From: Leptolyngbya sp. CCY15150
GTDB lineage: Bacteria > Cyanobacteriota > Cyanobacteriia > RECH01
Assembly (NCBI RefSeq): GCF_016888135.1
Contig: NZ_JACSWB010000207.1
Location: 310,001-374,000, forward strand
Direction: 5' to 3'
Length of the DNA stretch: 64,000 bases
Part shown: positions 12,089 to 60,554 of the stretch, one piece after another
Position numbering within the stretch: position 1 is the first letter of the stretch
Layout of the letters: each line of letters starts with the position of its first letter
Notes under the pieces: generated by a model
Told to the model about the DNA's origin: nothing
Seen by the model: the letters and a program-made list of their open reading frames with translations, nothing else
Database searches by the model: none
Position numbers and translations under genes: made by a program

Positions 12089-12655
12089 ATGTTAACGAAT
12101 TTACAGTCATGGGCTTGGAGAACCACCATGAGAGCAAAACTGCTTCGCCAACCAGCCAACGCCGGCTTTACCCTGATTGAGGTTTTGGCAGTCGTGATTA
12201 TCGTGGGCATTCTGGCAGCGATCGCTGCTCCAGGATGGGTTGCCTTTGCCAATTCCCGCGAGGCTAATCAGCTTGCCGACCAAGTATTTCAGCGTATCCG
12301 CCAATCGCAAACTGATGCAGGGCGCTTGCGCAGCAATCAGGTAGTCGAGTTCAATGATGGAAATCCACCGGAGTTACTCTATGGCTCTGCAGGGGGTGGG
12401 GGGCGTAACACCGAGCTTTTGGGTGAAGGACGGCTGGCCAATGGAATGGCTAGCTTAGACGTCTTTGATGGCAACGGTGCCGAGGTCGATTCGGTCGTGT
12501 TTGACCCCAATGGCATCTTGGTCTCAGATGGCAATCTACCGATCACTGTGGTCGTTCAAGTGCCGGCAGATGGCTCTGGATCTACCCGCTGTGTGATCCT
12601 CAAAACGTTGCTGGGCGCATCTGAACTTGCCCAGGGTGATGCCTGCACCCCTTAG
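12089..12655 (+). CDS. Pseudopilin of GspH/FimT type, third gene of the hps cluster
   Basis: 188-aa pseudopilin with cleavage motif NAG/FTLIEVLAVVIIVGILAAIAAPGW, the pattern typical of GspH/FimT minor pseudopilins. The conserved helix that follows (ANQLADQVFQRIRQSQTDAG) also fits. By position it corresponds to HpsD of the Nostoc cluster; the identity is inferred from order. A second in-frame ATG at 12128 would give a shorter leader (MRAKLLRQPANAG) and may be the true start. The stop codon coincides with the left edge of a dispersed repeat (12651-12776). No glycosyltransferase genes follow, unlike the longer Nostoc hps locus. Confidence 0.72.
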   Translation: MLTNLQSWAWRTTMRAKLLRQPANAGFTLIEVLAVVIIVGILAAIAAPGWVAFANSREANQLADQVFQRIRQSQTDAGRLRSNQVVEFNDGNPPELLYGSAGGGGRNTELLGEGRLANGMASLDVFDGNGAEVDSVVFDPNGILVSDGNLPITVVVQVPADGSGSTRCVILKTLLGASELAQGDACTP

Positions 12656-12776
12656 GAATGCAAGACAGAAGAACGAAGATAGAAGAGCGAAGATAGAAGA
12701 ACGAAAAGGAATTCTAGGACAAACCAGGTTTCCCGCCTCAGCACCTAGGCGGGTCACTTAGGCCTCAGAGTACTAG
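12651..12776 (+). repeat. Dispersed CTAG-bounded heptad/hairpin element, copy 1
   Basis: Left boundary CTTAG (degenerate CTAG) overlaps the TAG stop of the pseudopilin gene. Six heptads follow, of types AAGACAG, AAGAACG, AAGATAG and AAGAGCG, then the conserved AAAAGGAATT. Next is a hairpin CCCGCCT/AGGCGGG with an 8-nt loop, and the element ends CTCAGAGTACTAG. It is related to four other copies in this window. No coding capacity. It resembles a MITE or a short tandemly repeated cyanobacterial repeat, and may also act as a 3'-end element for the hps transcript. Confidence 0.85.
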
Positions 12777-23111: not shown

Positions 23112-23705
23112 ATGACCCTGTTGCACCCTTCCAGGTACCTCGTTGGTCTCGGTCGAGCTGTGGCGATCGCCCTCCTACTGAACGGTGGGGCAGCGATCGC
23201 CGAGGGACGACCGGCTGAACCAGGACAGGGGAACCTTAGCCCCGACCAGGTCACCCTCTCCCAACCCGATCTGCCCGCGCTGGGAACCTGGGATCTTTAC
23301 CTACCCGAGGAGCAGATTCAGCCCCGTATCCTCATCCGTCTCAGCGATCGGCGGGTTTACCTCTACCACGGGGATGAGGTCGTGGCCAGCTATCCCGTCG
23401 CTATCGGCCATCCCGACACCCCCACCCCCACCGGCACCTACGAAGTGTTTCAAATGGTAGTTGATCCAGCCTGGCAAAGCCCTTGGACAGGAGAGGTGCA
23501 TCCGCCAGGGCCCAACAGCGCCCTGGGCGTTCGCTGGATTGGCTTTGCCGAGATGCCCAACGGTGTCATTGGTCTCCACGGCACGCCGACGGTTTCATCC
23601 ATTGGTCAAGCCGCTTCCAATGGCTGTGTGCGCATGCACAATGCCGATGTGATGGCCCTGTTTGACCAAGTTGGCGTCGGCACTATGGTGGTCGTGGTTC
23701 CCTAG
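23112..23705 (+). CDS. L,D-transpeptidase (YkuD domain), exported
   Basis: 197 aa with an N-terminal signal-like segment (GRAVAIALLLNGGAAIAEG). The YkuD domain starts with ILIRLSDRRVYLYHGDE, and the catalytic motif is HGTPTVSSIGQAASNGCVRM with His near residue 156 and Cys near 171. It would cross-link peptidoglycan (3-3 links) or modify it in the periplasm. The start is taken at the ATG at 23112, since the longer frame overlaps the debranching gene. Its TAG stop lies in the CTAG boundary of repeat copy 2. Confidence 0.88.
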   Translation: MTLLHPSRYLVGLGRAVAIALLLNGGAAIAEGRPAEPGQGNLSPDQVTLSQPDLPALGTWDLYLPEEQIQPRILIRLSDRRVYLYHGDEVVASYPVAIGHPDTPTPTGTYEVFQMVVDPAWQSPWTGEVHPPGPNSALGVRWIGFAEMPNGVIGLHGTPTVSSIGQAASNGCVRMHNADVMALFDQVGVGTMVVVVP

Positions 23706-23812
23706 CGCCACAAGACAGAAGAAAGAAGATAGAAAAACGAAAAGGAATTTCAGGACACATAAGGTTTCCCACCTTAGCAACTAGGCGGGTTACGTCCGCC
23801 TCAGAGTACTAG
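23702..23812 (+). repeat. Dispersed CTAG-bounded heptad/hairpin element, copy 2
   Basis: The left CTAG contains the stop codon of the L,D-transpeptidase gene. Only four heptads are present, the shortest of the family. In the core the first stem is mismatched (CCCACCT against AGGCGGG), while the second, alternative stem AGGCGG/CCGCCT is perfect. It ends CTCAGAGTACTAG, and its last CTAG is also the first CTAG of the adjoining 86-bp element. Confidence 0.88.
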
Positions 23813-23894
23813 GGCGTGTTTTAAAACTCATCCAAACCCCGATTCTCTCGTACGAAAGATCAAGAGATTTAGCAGGTTTTAAAACAGAGCCTAG
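23809..23894. mobile_element. 86-bp MITE-like element with TGTTTTAAAAC inverted ends
   Basis: Both ends carry CTAG. Inside, the left end GGCGTGTTTTAAAAC and the right end (reverse complement GCTCTGTTTTAAAAC) form imperfect terminal inverted repeats with 12 of 15 bases identical. CTAG duplication and this size fit a non-autonomous element mobilised by a transposase with a YTAR target, such as IS5-group elements. No transposase is present in the window. It adjoins repeat copy 2 and shares its CTAG. Confidence 0.6.
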
Positions 23895-25118: not shown

Positions 25119-25498
25119 AGTTGCTGAGCTCAATCAACCCATAGAATACCAAATCAATGCAATCGGCATCTGTTTGATGGTAACACTAGGTATAGAGGAG
25201 AGCAGGAGGCGATCGCAAATCTTATTTCTAGATATAGCGTTGACGCCGAGTTGATCTCCAGTTCCCCTGTAGGCCAACATCTGTTGTGCCTTGAGCAAGC
25301 TGAAGAGATGGAGCGGGAAACTAGCTAGAATGATTGGCCAGATAGGCATCGATGGCTCTTGAAGTTGGTTGGCAAGCTGTATTGCCACATTGCTCAATGC
25401 TCAAACCTTGATAAAAAGAGGGTTGGGCCTCTATGAGAAGAGGGTTGAGCGTAGCCGAAACCCGGCCAGAGCCGCTGTGACTTGAGTCCACCTCCTGA
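25119..25498. other. Intergenic region upstream of the tandem CobO gene
   Basis: 380 bp without a supported gene. It contains a direct repeat of AGAGGGTTG (around 25417-25450) and one HIP1 site. No cobalamin riboswitch core was recognised upstream of the CobO-like gene on either strand. Confidence 0.4.
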
Positions 25499-25616
25499 CT
25501 AGTACTCTGAGGCGGACGTACCCCACCTAGTTGCTAAGGTGGAAAACCTGGTTTGTCCTAGACTTCCTTTTCGTTCTTCTGTCTTCTATCTTCGTTCTTC
25601 TATCTTGCGTTACTAG
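25499..25616 (-). repeat. Dispersed CTAG-bounded heptad/hairpin element, copy 3 (inverted)
   Basis: Reads on the minus strand: CTAGTAACGCAAGATAG, five heptads, AAAAGGAAG, then the hairpin CCACCT/AGGTGG. The AGGTGG arm pairs fully with CCACCT, whereas copies 1 and 5 use CCGCCT/AGGCGG, so both sides of one pair have changed together. It ends CTCAGAGTACTAG. This is the only copy whose left boundary does not overlap a recognisable gene end. Confidence 0.88.
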
Positions 25617-53016: not shown

Positions 53017-53110
53017 GCATCAATCCTGATGGACTGATGACCCATCGTTTTCCCCTCATCCCCCAGCCCCTTCTCCCACAAGGGGAGCAGGGGAGCAGGA
53101 AAGTTTATGT

Positions 53111-53156
53111 GCTTTCAACCCTCGCCCGTTCTGGGTTTGGGGTGAGGGACTTCAAG
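53111..53156. repeat. Dispersed intergenic repeat, copy B (inverted relative to 48038)
   Basis: Reverse complement reads TTGAAGTCCCTCACCCC, AAACCC, CGGGCGAGGG and TTGAAAGC, matching copy A except for a short internal deletion. It lies between the LapA/GGDEF gene and the PRC-barrel gene. Confidence 0.75.
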
Positions 53157-53196
53157 GTTTGTCTGTTAACCAGGAATCAATCTGAGACTAACAAGC

Positions 53197-54145: not shown

Positions 54146-54269
54146 CTAGTACTCTGAGACGAAGTAATCCGTCTAGTTGCTAAAGCGGAAAACTTTGGTT
54201 TTCCTAGAATTCCTTTTCGTTCTTCTGTCTTCGTTTTTCTATCTTCGTCCTTCTGTCTTACGGCACTAG
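54146..54269 (-). repeat. Dispersed CTAG-bounded heptad/hairpin element, copy 4 (inverted)
   Basis: Read on the minus strand: CTAGTGCCGTAAGACAG, six heptads, AAAAGGAATT, then the core. The left CTAG holds the TAG stop of the DUF4912 gene. The first stem is weak (CCGCTT against AGACGG), but the alternative second stem AGACG/CGTCT is perfect and differs from copy 2 on both sides of the pair. It ends CTCAGAGTACTAG. Confidence 0.88.
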
Positions 54270-55513
54270 AACCATGGATCCTCTTCTAGGTCTTGCCCAT
54301 GGGTTTGATCCGTCGGCGTGGTGCGTTCAAACTCTAAGCGTATCAGGCGTTCCTGCTCACCGTCAGCAGCGATCGCTCGAATTGCATAGCGAATCTGTCC
54401 ATCGGGAAACGGTACCTGCCATTGAAAAGTGCCATCGGGCTGGAGGAGTTTGGGTTGACCATTCACCGCCACATGGGCGTCCGACTCGGTGGATCCATAC
54501 ACAATCAGTTCCGCATCGGCCACCAGCCAAAAACGACGCGATCGCTGCGGCGGCATGGAGGCGGTCAGCCCAATTCCCGATGCCCCAGATTGAATGCCCG
54601 ACCATCCCATACCCGACGGGGTCGGCAGCATCCATCCCCCTCCCCCGGATAATGCAATGGAGTCGGTCATCGTCTCTAGACCGGCGGTAGCTAAGTGAAA
54701 AAGCTGTTCGTGGATCACCGGCTGGACGGCGTCGTGGTGTTGCTCAGTCAGGGAGGCTGGTGCCGGGGTCGGAGCAGCACGCAGCACGGGCGATCGCGCC
54801 AGAGTCACCCACTGCCCATCGCCAGTCAGGTAGCCGATATCGGCCACATAATCGCGATCGCCCATCGGTAGAGGCATCCAATAATCTTGCTGACCAGCAC
54901 AGTCAAACTGCTGCAGGCTATGGGGATTTTGTCGGTCTAGATCGCGATCGGTAGCGTCGTAGAGGCGCAGCGCTAGGGATCCATGGTTCTGTAATGCTGT
55001 TTGATCCTGGGTGCTTAGCTGCCAAGCGGCATGAGCCCAATCCTGCTGCTGCGTCAGGCTGAGACGGCTACGGTTGGGCACCAACGGCGTCAGATCTGTA
55101 TCGACCGGGGCGACATCTGGAACTCTTGCAACATCTGGCTGCGGCTGAACCGGGGTCGCTGCTCCTAGGCGTCCAGCTCGATCGGCCGCTACCACGGTAC
55201 CAATTCGTTGGGTGGCGATCGCTGCTCCCGAGGGTGGTGCATCAGGATGGGTACGTTCCGCTGCTGCCACCTGCTGTTCCTGTCGCCTGCGCCATAGCCC
55301 TAGGGCCAGCCAGCCAATGGGCATCACTGCGACAATGCCCCAAAACCACTTGGGTGAGGTTTGCCCCGAGGGTGGTGACGCCTGAGCCTGGGCTAGCATG
55401 GGTTGCGACAGGGCCAGCACCCGAGGCGACAGGTCATTCGACAGGCCAACTAGGGCTAGAAACAGTAGCCCATACAGGGGGGAACAGAGCAGTTGGAAAC
55501 TACGGGGCATCAT
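54266..55513 (-). CDS. DUF4912 domain protein with N-terminal signal and membrane anchor
   Basis: 415 aa. Residues 1-41 look like a signal peptide (LYGLLFLALVGLSNDLSPRVLA), followed by a second hydrophobic segment (FWGIVAVMPIGWLALGLW) and then a Pro/Ala linker. The DUF4912 core lies around residues 155-250 (QDWAHAAWQL, LALRLYDAT, RDYVADIGYLTGDGQWVTLARSPVL). A C-terminal segment (RRFWLVADAELIVYGSTESDAHVAVNG...) repeats the carbohydrate-binding-like fold found in some homologues. Function unknown. The stop codon overlaps repeat copy 4. Confidence 0.78.
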   Translation of the reverse strand: MMPRSFQLLCSPLYGLLFLALVGLSNDLSPRVLALSQPMLAQAQASPPSGQTSPKWFWGIVAVMPIGWLALGLWRRRQEQQVAAAERTHPDAPPSGAAIATQRIGTVVAADRAGRLGAATPVQPQPDVARVPDVAPVDTDLTPLVPNRSRLSLTQQQDWAHAAWQLSTQDQTALQNHGSLALRLYDATDRDLDRQNPHSLQQFDCAGQQDYWMPLPMGDRDYVADIGYLTGDGQWVTLARSPVLRAAPTPAPASLTEQHHDAVQPVIHEQLFHLATAGLETMTDSIALSGGGGWMLPTPSGMGWSGIQSGASGIGLTASMPPQRSRRFWLVADAELIVYGSTESDAHVAVNGQPKLLQPDGTFQWQVPFPDGQIRYAIRAIAADGEQERLIRLEFERTTPTDQTHGQDLEEDPWF

Positions 55514-55833: not shown

Positions 55834-57048
55834 ATGAAAATCTTGGTGCTCAATGCCGGTTCCAGCAGTCAGAAAAGCAGTCTGTATGATTTAACAGCCC
55901 CCTTGCCCCAGGATCCGCCTAAACCCATGTGGACAGCGCAACTGGATTGGGGTCGCCAGCCCGGCCTGGTGGATCTGAAGGTGCAGGGAGCGGCTGGTGT
56001 GCAGCGCTGGCAACTTCAGACATCGCCTAGCGAGGGCACCCAAATCATGCTGCAAACGATCTGGCAGGGCGAGCAGGCCGTCTTGCCCGATGCCAGCGCG
56101 ATTGATGGCGTGGGGCATCGGGTGGTGCATGGAGGGCAGGACTACAGCCAAAGTGTACGGGTGACCAAGGCGGTGAAGGAGGCGATCGCCCGTCTGATTC
56201 CCCTCGCGCCGGCCCATAATCCCGCCAATCTCAAGGGCATCACCGCGATTGAGGAGATTCTTGGAACCGACCTGCCCCAAGTTGCCGTGTTTGATACCGC
56301 CTTCCATCGCCAAATGCCCGCCGCCGCCGCCACCTATCCCATTCCCTACGCCCTCACCCAGCAAGGCATGAAGCGCTACGGTTTCCACGGCATCAGCCAT
56401 CGCTACTGCGCCCAGCGAGCTGCCCAATTGCTAGAACGGCCCCTAGACAGCCTGCGGTTGATCACCTGTCACTTGGGCAACGGGGCATCCCTGGCGGCGA
56501 TCGCCCAGGGGCACAGCGTGGATACCACCATGGGTTTCACGCCCCTAGAAGGCTTGATGATGGGCAGTCGCTCGGGTTCGGTGGATCCCGGTCTCCTGAT
56601 TCATCTCCTGCGCCAAGGAGACTATGGCGTGGATGACTTGGATCGATTGCTGAATCGCGAATCCGGCTTGTTGGGCGTTTCCGGAGTCTCGTCTGATATG
56701 CGCGATGTTCTAGCCGCGATCGCCACCGGCAACGAGCAGGCCCAGCTTGCCCTGGATGTCTATATCCATCGCCTGCGCTACTACGTAGGCGCTATGCTCA
56801 TGAGCTTGGGGGGGCTGGATGGTCTGGTGTTCACGGCGGGCATTGGGGAGCGATCGCCCGAGGTACGAGCGGCTGTTTGTGAGTCCCTTGGCTTCCTCGG
56901 CGTCAGGTTGGATGGCGATCGCAATCAAGAGAGTCCTGCCGATGCCCTCATTTCCACCCCAGATTCCGCCGTGCCGGTGCTGGTTATTCAAACCCAGGAA
57001 GATTGGGCGATCGCTCAAGAGTGCTGGCACCTGCTGGAGCATTCCTAG
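55834..57048 (+). CDS. ackA: Acetate kinase
   Basis: 404-aa ASKHA-fold kinase interconverting acetate + ATP and acetyl phosphate. Family motifs are ILVLNAGSSSQKSSLYDL at the N-terminus, GHRVVHGG, VAVFDTAFH, ITCHLGNGASLAAI, DTTMGFTPLEGLMMGSRSGSVDPG and FTAGIGERSPEVR. All expected active-site segments are present. Its pathway partner phosphotransacetylase is not in the window. The TAG stop lies in the left CTAG of repeat copy 5. Confidence 0.95.
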   Translation: MKILVLNAGSSSQKSSLYDLTAPLPQDPPKPMWTAQLDWGRQPGLVDLKVQGAAGVQRWQLQTSPSEGTQIMLQTIWQGEQAVLPDASAIDGVGHRVVHGGQDYSQSVRVTKAVKEAIARLIPLAPAHNPANLKGITAIEEILGTDLPQVAVFDTAFHRQMPAAAATYPIPYALTQQGMKRYGFHGISHRYCAQRAAQLLERPLDSLRLITCHLGNGASLAAIAQGHSVDTTMGFTPLEGLMMGSRSGSVDPGLLIHLLRQGDYGVDDLDRLLNRESGLLGVSGVSSDMRDVLAAIATGNEQAQLALDVYIHRLRYYVGAMLMSLGGLDGLVFTAGIGERSPEVRAAVCESLGFLGVRLDGDRNQESPADALISTPDSAVPVLVIQTQEDWAIAQECWHLLEHS

Positions 57049-57182
57049 TACCGTAAGACAGAAGAACGAAGATAGAAGAACGAAAACAGAAGAACGAAGA
57101 CAGAAAAACGAAAAGGAATTCCAGGAAAAACAAGGTTTCCCGCCTCAGCCATAGGCGGGTTACTTACCCCTCAGAGTACTAG
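57045..57182 (+). repeat. Dispersed CTAG-bounded heptad/hairpin element, copy 5 (longest)
   Basis: CTAGTACCGTAAGACAG, then eight heptads, AAAAGGAATT, a perfect stem CCCGCCT/AGGCGGG with 7-nt loop, and the end CTCAGAGTACTAG. The outermost CTAGTAC and GTACTAG form a 7-bp inverted repeat. The left CTAG holds the ackA stop codon. It lies in opposite orientation to copy 4, the two flanking DUF4912 and ackA. Confidence 0.9.
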
Positions 57183-60258: not shown

Positions 60259-60554
60259 CCTGCTCCCGGCATCCATGTAAACCTAGTAAACCTACGGGTG
60301 GAATCCACGGCGCAAGGATGACAACCTCGCCATTCAGTCCCAATCATTGAATGGCTATAAGAACGCCAGATTTCCACTCATAATGATTGGCAAACAACAC
60401 TCCTGCGAGCTTGATTCTCTCGTAGCTTGGGTTAGCGTCAGCGTAACCCAACGAAATCTAAGCTGGTGCTGGGTTTTACGTTGCTCCACCTAGCCTCGGC
60501 AACAAGGTTGGTCAGTCAACCAGCTCATAACCTCATCCCTACAAAAATCAGGAC
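60259..60554. other. Intergenic region between the convergent NurA and linker genes
   Basis: About 300 bp containing a palindromic repeat (60427-60451). No gene or RNA recognised; the leftward terminator of the linker gene lies at its right edge. Confidence 0.45.
60427..60451. repeat. Palindromic intergenic repeat
   Basis: TTGGGTTA/TAACCCAA, an 8-bp perfect stem around GCGTCAGCG. The motif with flanking GTAGCTTGGGTTAGCG resembles palindromic repeats I recall as widespread between genes in cyanobacteria. Only one copy was noticed here. Confidence 0.65.

Follow-up and report, generated by a model that had tools for sequence, protein, structure and literature searches.

A probable IS630-type MITE family inserted in CTAG, with an internal 14-bp repeat array, in Leptolyngbya sp. 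CCY15150

Results

Five related repeats occur in the window (the whole 64-kb stretch of DNA analysed here) and, together with their relatives elsewhere in the genome, they very probably belong to a single MITE family that a transposase of the IS630 (Tc1/mariner) family mobilises in trans. This proposal draws on what the sequences show: insertion that is precise and duplicates TA, ends in common with IS630-family elements, and an internal array that varies; that a transposase of this type moved the present copies, we infer from the shared ends and the target. The initial annotation had located the five elements correctly, apart from the start of element 1, which is 12652 and not 12651, and the family that they represent is far beyond chance. 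It had also given each element CTAG at or near both ends. This holds for most copies, the left end of element 1 being TTAG. The elements, and the parts of element 5, are as follows.

12652..12776, plus strand: element 1, flanking target included; the target on the left is TTAG
23702..23812, plus strand: element 2, flanking CTAG included; the left TAG serves as stop codon for the gene at 23232-23705
25499..25616, minus strand: element 3 with flanking CTAG
54146..54269, minus strand: element 4, flanking CTAG included; the left TAG serves as stop codon for the minus-strand gene at 54266-55498
57048..57179, plus strand: element 5, body without target, 132 bp, GTAC...GTAC
57046..57047: element 5, left TA of the target duplication, within CTAG 57045-57048
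57046-57048: TAG, stop codon of the gene upstream of element 5 (55882-57048)
57180..57181: element 5, right TA of the target duplication, within CTAG 57179-57182
57048..57064, plus strand: element 5, left terminal inverted repeat GTACCGTAAGACAGAAG, an imperfect match to the right end
57055..57110, plus strand: element 5, variable-number tract, 14-bp unit GAAGACAGAAGAAC
57139..57159, plus strand: element 5, conserved hairpin CCCGCCT...AGGCGGG, adjoining the right terminal repeat
57159..57179, minus strand: element 5, right terminal inverted repeat, inwards GTACTCTGAGGGGTAAGTAAC; family consensus GTACTCTGAGGCGGAAGTAAC

The copies share defined ends and a variable 14-bp array

The family consensus reads CTA-[GTACCGCAAGACAGAAGAAC-(GAAGACAGAAGAAC)n-GAAAAGGAATTCCAGGACACACAAGGTTTCCCGCCTnAGCAnnTAGGCGGGTTACTTnCGCCTCAGAGTAC]-TAG, and its copies fall into length classes of 109-111, 123-125, 136-138, 151 and 167 bp. 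Since the lengths cluster in 14-bp steps, the unit of variation is GAAGACAGAAGAAC, that is, two of the heptads first described taken together. The copies are short (109-167 bp), numerous and without a transposase gene, in agreement with the lack of coding capacity noted at the outset. Their ends (GTACCGCAAGACAGAAG on the left, GTACTCTGAGGCGGAAGTAAC on the right) form imperfect inverted repeats of about 17 bp, GTAC...RAGRCRGAAG, which are weak in this genus and clearer in distant full-length homologues, where the left end is GTACCGCAAGGCAGAAG. In these homologues the left arm GTACCGCAAGGCAGAAGG corresponds to the right end, which read inwards is near GTACTCTGAGGCGGAAGTAAC, and this makes the 17-bp imperfect inverted repeat plain. 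The right end had been called invariant; it is strongly conserved, but not invariant.

A search of the CCY15150 genome with the right-end core GCCTCAGAGTACTAG, allowing at most two mismatches, gave 59 matches, against 4 for the reversed control, and 40 copies were scored by BLAST with E values from 1e-20 to 1e-67. The covariance-model search of the genome and its relatives that the initial annotation had suggested was run, and it identified 81 copies in this genome (G000), 24 and 88 in the congeners G001 and G002, and no family copy in the sister genus G003. The named relatives are the metagenome-assembled genomes Leptolyngbya sp. DLM2.Bin15 and Leptolyngbyaceae cyanobacterium CSSed165cm_216. 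Among 390 Cyanobacteriia genomes the core is carried by 18; several of these are from other families, with matches that span the full model. An Rfam scan of the window at the gathering threshold returned no matches, and no viral carriers with the family core pattern were found.

Orthologous copies differ in length (137 vs 111, 111 vs 153 and 125 vs 111 bp), and the ortholog of element 4 in G001 has one 14-bp unit fewer. Because the number of units differs between orthologous copies, the array changes after insertion. Cyanobacterial STRRs are heptad arrays, and the tract had been likened to them. The resemblance stands, as the purine heptads are similar and the tract is indeed a minisatellite of variable length; the terminal inverted repeat, however, makes up its 5' part. 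STRRs differ, moreover, in being free arrays that lack the CTAG ends, the hairpin and the inverted repeats; in G005 and G026, GAAGAAC arrays were detected on their own, with no other part of the element. Assignment of the family to the STRR heptad arrays was rejected, the array being internal to an element with defined ends.

Several other repeats lie close to the copies or elsewhere in the window. A second MITE of roughly 80 bp (GGCGTGTTTTAAAACTCATC...GGTTTTAAAACAGAGC) is found at window positions 23813-23894, at the right CTAG of element 2; it is absent in G002, and it also adjoins main-family copies at L013, L016, L027 and L038. Element 3 is adjoined at 25405-25469 by a 65-90-bp unit (AGAGGGTTGAGCGTAGCCGAAACCCGGCC), which is tandemly expanded at the G002 ortholog (L084). 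A dispersed repeat, about 130 bp long, occupies positions 53039-53175 and has several matches in G001. An abundant repeat of about 140 bp (GATTGACGGACAAAACTCCTGCGATCTTGA...TTTGTCAGTCAACCAGG) at 60385-60524 has inverted ends and is not CTAG-bounded; dozens of copies occur in G002, and it is present also in G003. In G189, a distant homologue (L183) is directly adjoined on its right by a MITE, about 103 bp long, whose ends are related (TACTCGACGGCGGAAATAAACC...CTTCTGCTTTTCAGTA) and which has a CTAG in common with it; several further paired copies of this MITE occur in the same genome.

Insertion duplicates TA within a CTAG target

Empty orthologous sites, for which the initial annotation had proposed to look, were found in four cases, each with a single CTAG or a mutated form of it. 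The site of element 5 is empty in G001, with one CTAG, and occupied in G002. That of element 3 is also empty in G001, where a short local tandem duplication lies next to it. For two G002 copies the orthologous sites are empty in CCY15150, and at one of the two the target is now CTGG. All three genomes carry element 2; elements 1 and 4 are occupied in G001 as well and absent in G002, where the flanks are too diverged to define the junction.

CTAG had been taken for the element's own end. It proved instead to be the target, of which only TA is duplicated around a body GTAC...GTAC. As most copies (50 of 92) have CTAG on both sides, they could be read as a MITE of IS5 or IS701 type that duplicates all 4 bp of CTAG, and a duplication of CTAG or YTAA has been reported for MITEPsy1, which is possibly related to IS5 (PMC3189936). 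However, in nine of nine copies with an off-consensus left target base (T or A, with TA at both borders; some could be later mutations), the right border keeps C. Since the left base is never copied to the right, C belongs to the element and the duplication is TA inside CTAG; the 4-bp duplication that this alternative calls for did not appear. The same left-target T was observed in two genomes for element 1 and for the L146/L096 pair. Furthermore, the matching ends belong to IS630-family elements (see below), and IS701-type (DDE_5) elements of related genomes have other ends and were absent from G000-G003. An IS5- or IS701-type origin is consequently highly unlikely.

IS630-family elements of related cyanobacteria carry matching ends

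The initial annotation had proposed to look for an autonomous partner with the same ends, and one exists in the form of IS630-family elements in related cyanobacteria, but no close one was found in the genus itself. In G154, a DDE_3 search and the end pattern converged on a 1291-bp IS630-family element whose product, encoded in two frames, has matches to NCBIfam IS630 and Pfam DDE_3. All 11 copies examined are located at CTA-[GTACTGGGTGGC...GCCAAGCAGTAC]-TAG (CTA-[GTACTGGGTGGCTGAAATGACC...GGCCACTTCCGCCAAGCAGTAC]-TAG in a longer reading of the ends), and this element often directly adjoins MITEs. The end pattern of the distant homologues gave 287 matches in G154, itself a distant genome, against none for the reversed control, and these are the ends of a larger CTAG-MITE group. 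Homologues of the G154 element at E 1e-30 or better were detected in 51 of the 390 genomes, and those with readable paired ends lie mostly in CTAG. The left end GTACTCTGAGGCGGAAGTA of an IS630-family homologue at CTAG in G339 (L267) is the same as the MITE right end over 19 of 19 bp (E 9.6e-6), a best match reached by none of 100000 shuffles. Two other elements, L266 and L264, match the MITE at one end over 18 of 19 bp, and the left terminal repeat of element 5 resembles the right end of the IS in L264. Beyond the ends, MITE and IS have no clear common sequence. The two co-occur in 5 of the 18 MITE-carrying genomes, vs 2.4 expected over the 390 genomes (Fisher p 0.07), which is only suggestive.

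No close relative of the transposase (E up to 1e-30) was detected in the draft assemblies G000, G001 and G002, and G000 has four DDE_3 genes, which are unrelated; the actual driver was therefore not found in the genus. An autonomous copy with MITE ends in the CCY15150 genome was rejected as a candidate, the unpaired left ends being diverged or truncated copies or chance matches. A partner within the same genome is usual for MITEs of the IS630/Tc1-mariner type without being required. The source element of the genus has presumably been lost, or is missing from the draft assemblies.

The internal sequence is asymmetric, with one hairpin near the right end, and the copies show an orientation bias relative to genes. 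Both features would suit an element transposed as a single strand (IS200/IS605 or REP/RAYT), which would insert on the 3' side of CTAG and bring a CTAG of its own. Elements of the IS200/IS605 or REP type have subterminal hairpins at both ends and no terminal inverted repeats, whereas the present copies have no left-end hairpin, and the inverted repeats at both of their ends match an IS630-family element. Such an origin is thus extremely improbable. The description of the copies as non-autonomous mobile elements, offered from the five sequences at first, is borne out by the empty sites and by the existence of an autonomous partner type with the same ends.

Copies lie preferentially behind stop codons

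The gene context of 80 copies, some orthologous copies being counted in more than one genome, was analysed with a simple hexamer gene caller. None of the 80 was located inside a called gene. The left-hand gene pointed towards the element in 59 copies and away from it in 13; the stop codon TAG was found at the left CTAG in 37 copies and at the right CTAG in 8 (binomial p 1.5e-5), and same-strand tandem pairs numbered 24 vs 6 (p 0.0014). A separate frame test on 85 copies gave 47 left stops and 9 right stops, with 9 of 340 for the control frames. Of the window CTAGs outside called genes, 10 of 85 are stop codons; CTAG stop sites are thus also over-used by the copies, by a factor that is rough because the gene caller misses some genes. 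Young and old copies, with left to right stops of 25:9 and 25:5, showed no significant trend.

Transposition into a palindromic target would not lead one to expect this strong orientation bias. Since G is the first base at both element ends, insertion into a CTAG stop rebuilds TAG either way round, and effects on the protein thus do not explain the bias. The bias may stem from selection acting on transcripts or from a transcription-linked preference in insertion.

The same counts could point to a structured 3' UTR or small-RNA module that is maintained by the host and spreads only because it is useful behind genes, and a different CTAG-MITE in G154 displays little bias (11 vs 6). Yet the empty sites and transposon ends show mobility, so that a host module is possible only as an added role. 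In the stem, C-to-T and G-to-A changes match the background seen elsewhere in the element, giving no sign of selection for RNA pairing; an apparent excess of G.U-compatible changes (34 vs 22), considered as a mark of selection on RNA structure, was rejected as such, since the C-to-T bias outside the stem is at least as strong. Nor was the sense hairpin called as an intrinsic terminator by a simple scan. As the explanation of the family, then, a host-maintained module has very little indeed to recommend it. As a role added to the IS630-type MITE, host co-option is a tentative and rather doubtful proposal: the element would be a directional 3'-end module, copies of which persist mainly with the purine-repeat end after a same-strand stop, and in this orientation it would protect, end or insulate the transcript. 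The CTAG target and the first-base G, which rebuild TAG, would allow its delivery without damage to the protein.

Discussion

The family had looked undescribed. This stands for its name only: no paper naming it was found among the open-access literature searched, while the kind, an IS630-type MITE at TA in CTAG, is known. The initial annotation had stated that its view would fall if the ends matched a known insertion sequence, and at the level of the IS630 family they do. We are therefore dealing with what appears to be a new family of a known kind, with an internal minisatellite. Nezha, likewise a cyanobacterial MITE, is mentioned in PMC3049150 as having been proposed to be mobilised by ISNpu3-like elements.

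The 107-bp RUP of Streptococcus pneumoniae, a MITE with ends like those of IS630-Spn1 (PMC3049150), is also small and non-coding, has about 100 copies and matches an IS630-family element at its ends. Its sequence is unrelated, no minisatellite is mentioned for it, and it is densest 50-150 bp from genes, while the present family abuts stop codons. Another repeat of the same species, SPRITE, is enriched at the 3' ends of genes (PMC3049150). BrickBuilt of Porphyromonas gingivalis has a minisatellite inside a MITE (PMC4596501) and is intergenic, as here, but with a 23-nt unit and at 49-591 nt from genes. ISY100 of the Tc1/mariner family, on which there is in vitro work (PMC2170065), duplicates a TA target, and IS630 prefers TA within 5'-CTAG-3', according to the title of Tenzen and Ohtsubo (1991) as cited in PMC2170065. 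TA target and duplication are common to these elements and the present family; IS630 and ISY100 are, in contrast, autonomous and about 1 kb long, and neither is the same element as the partner found.

On the evidence of ends and target, an IS630-type transposase would recognise the imperfect terminal repeats GTACYNNRAGRCRGAAG, excise the element and insert it at the TA of CTAG, duplicating TA, to give CTA-[GTAC...GTAC]-TAG. The internal 14-bp array afterwards expands and contracts in place, and selection on transcript ends would, by inference, let copies persist mostly one way round behind stop codons.

An abundant cyanobacterial repeat would thereby be given an origin of known type, and the 14-bp array inside it offers a variable marker. 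The one odd feature of the family is that its copies sit directionally behind stop codons. In this mobile element the target (CTAG) and the first base (G) between them restore the TAG stop, so that insertion at a gene end is harmless to the protein, and the orientation bias makes the effect of insertions on transcript 3' ends directly testable.
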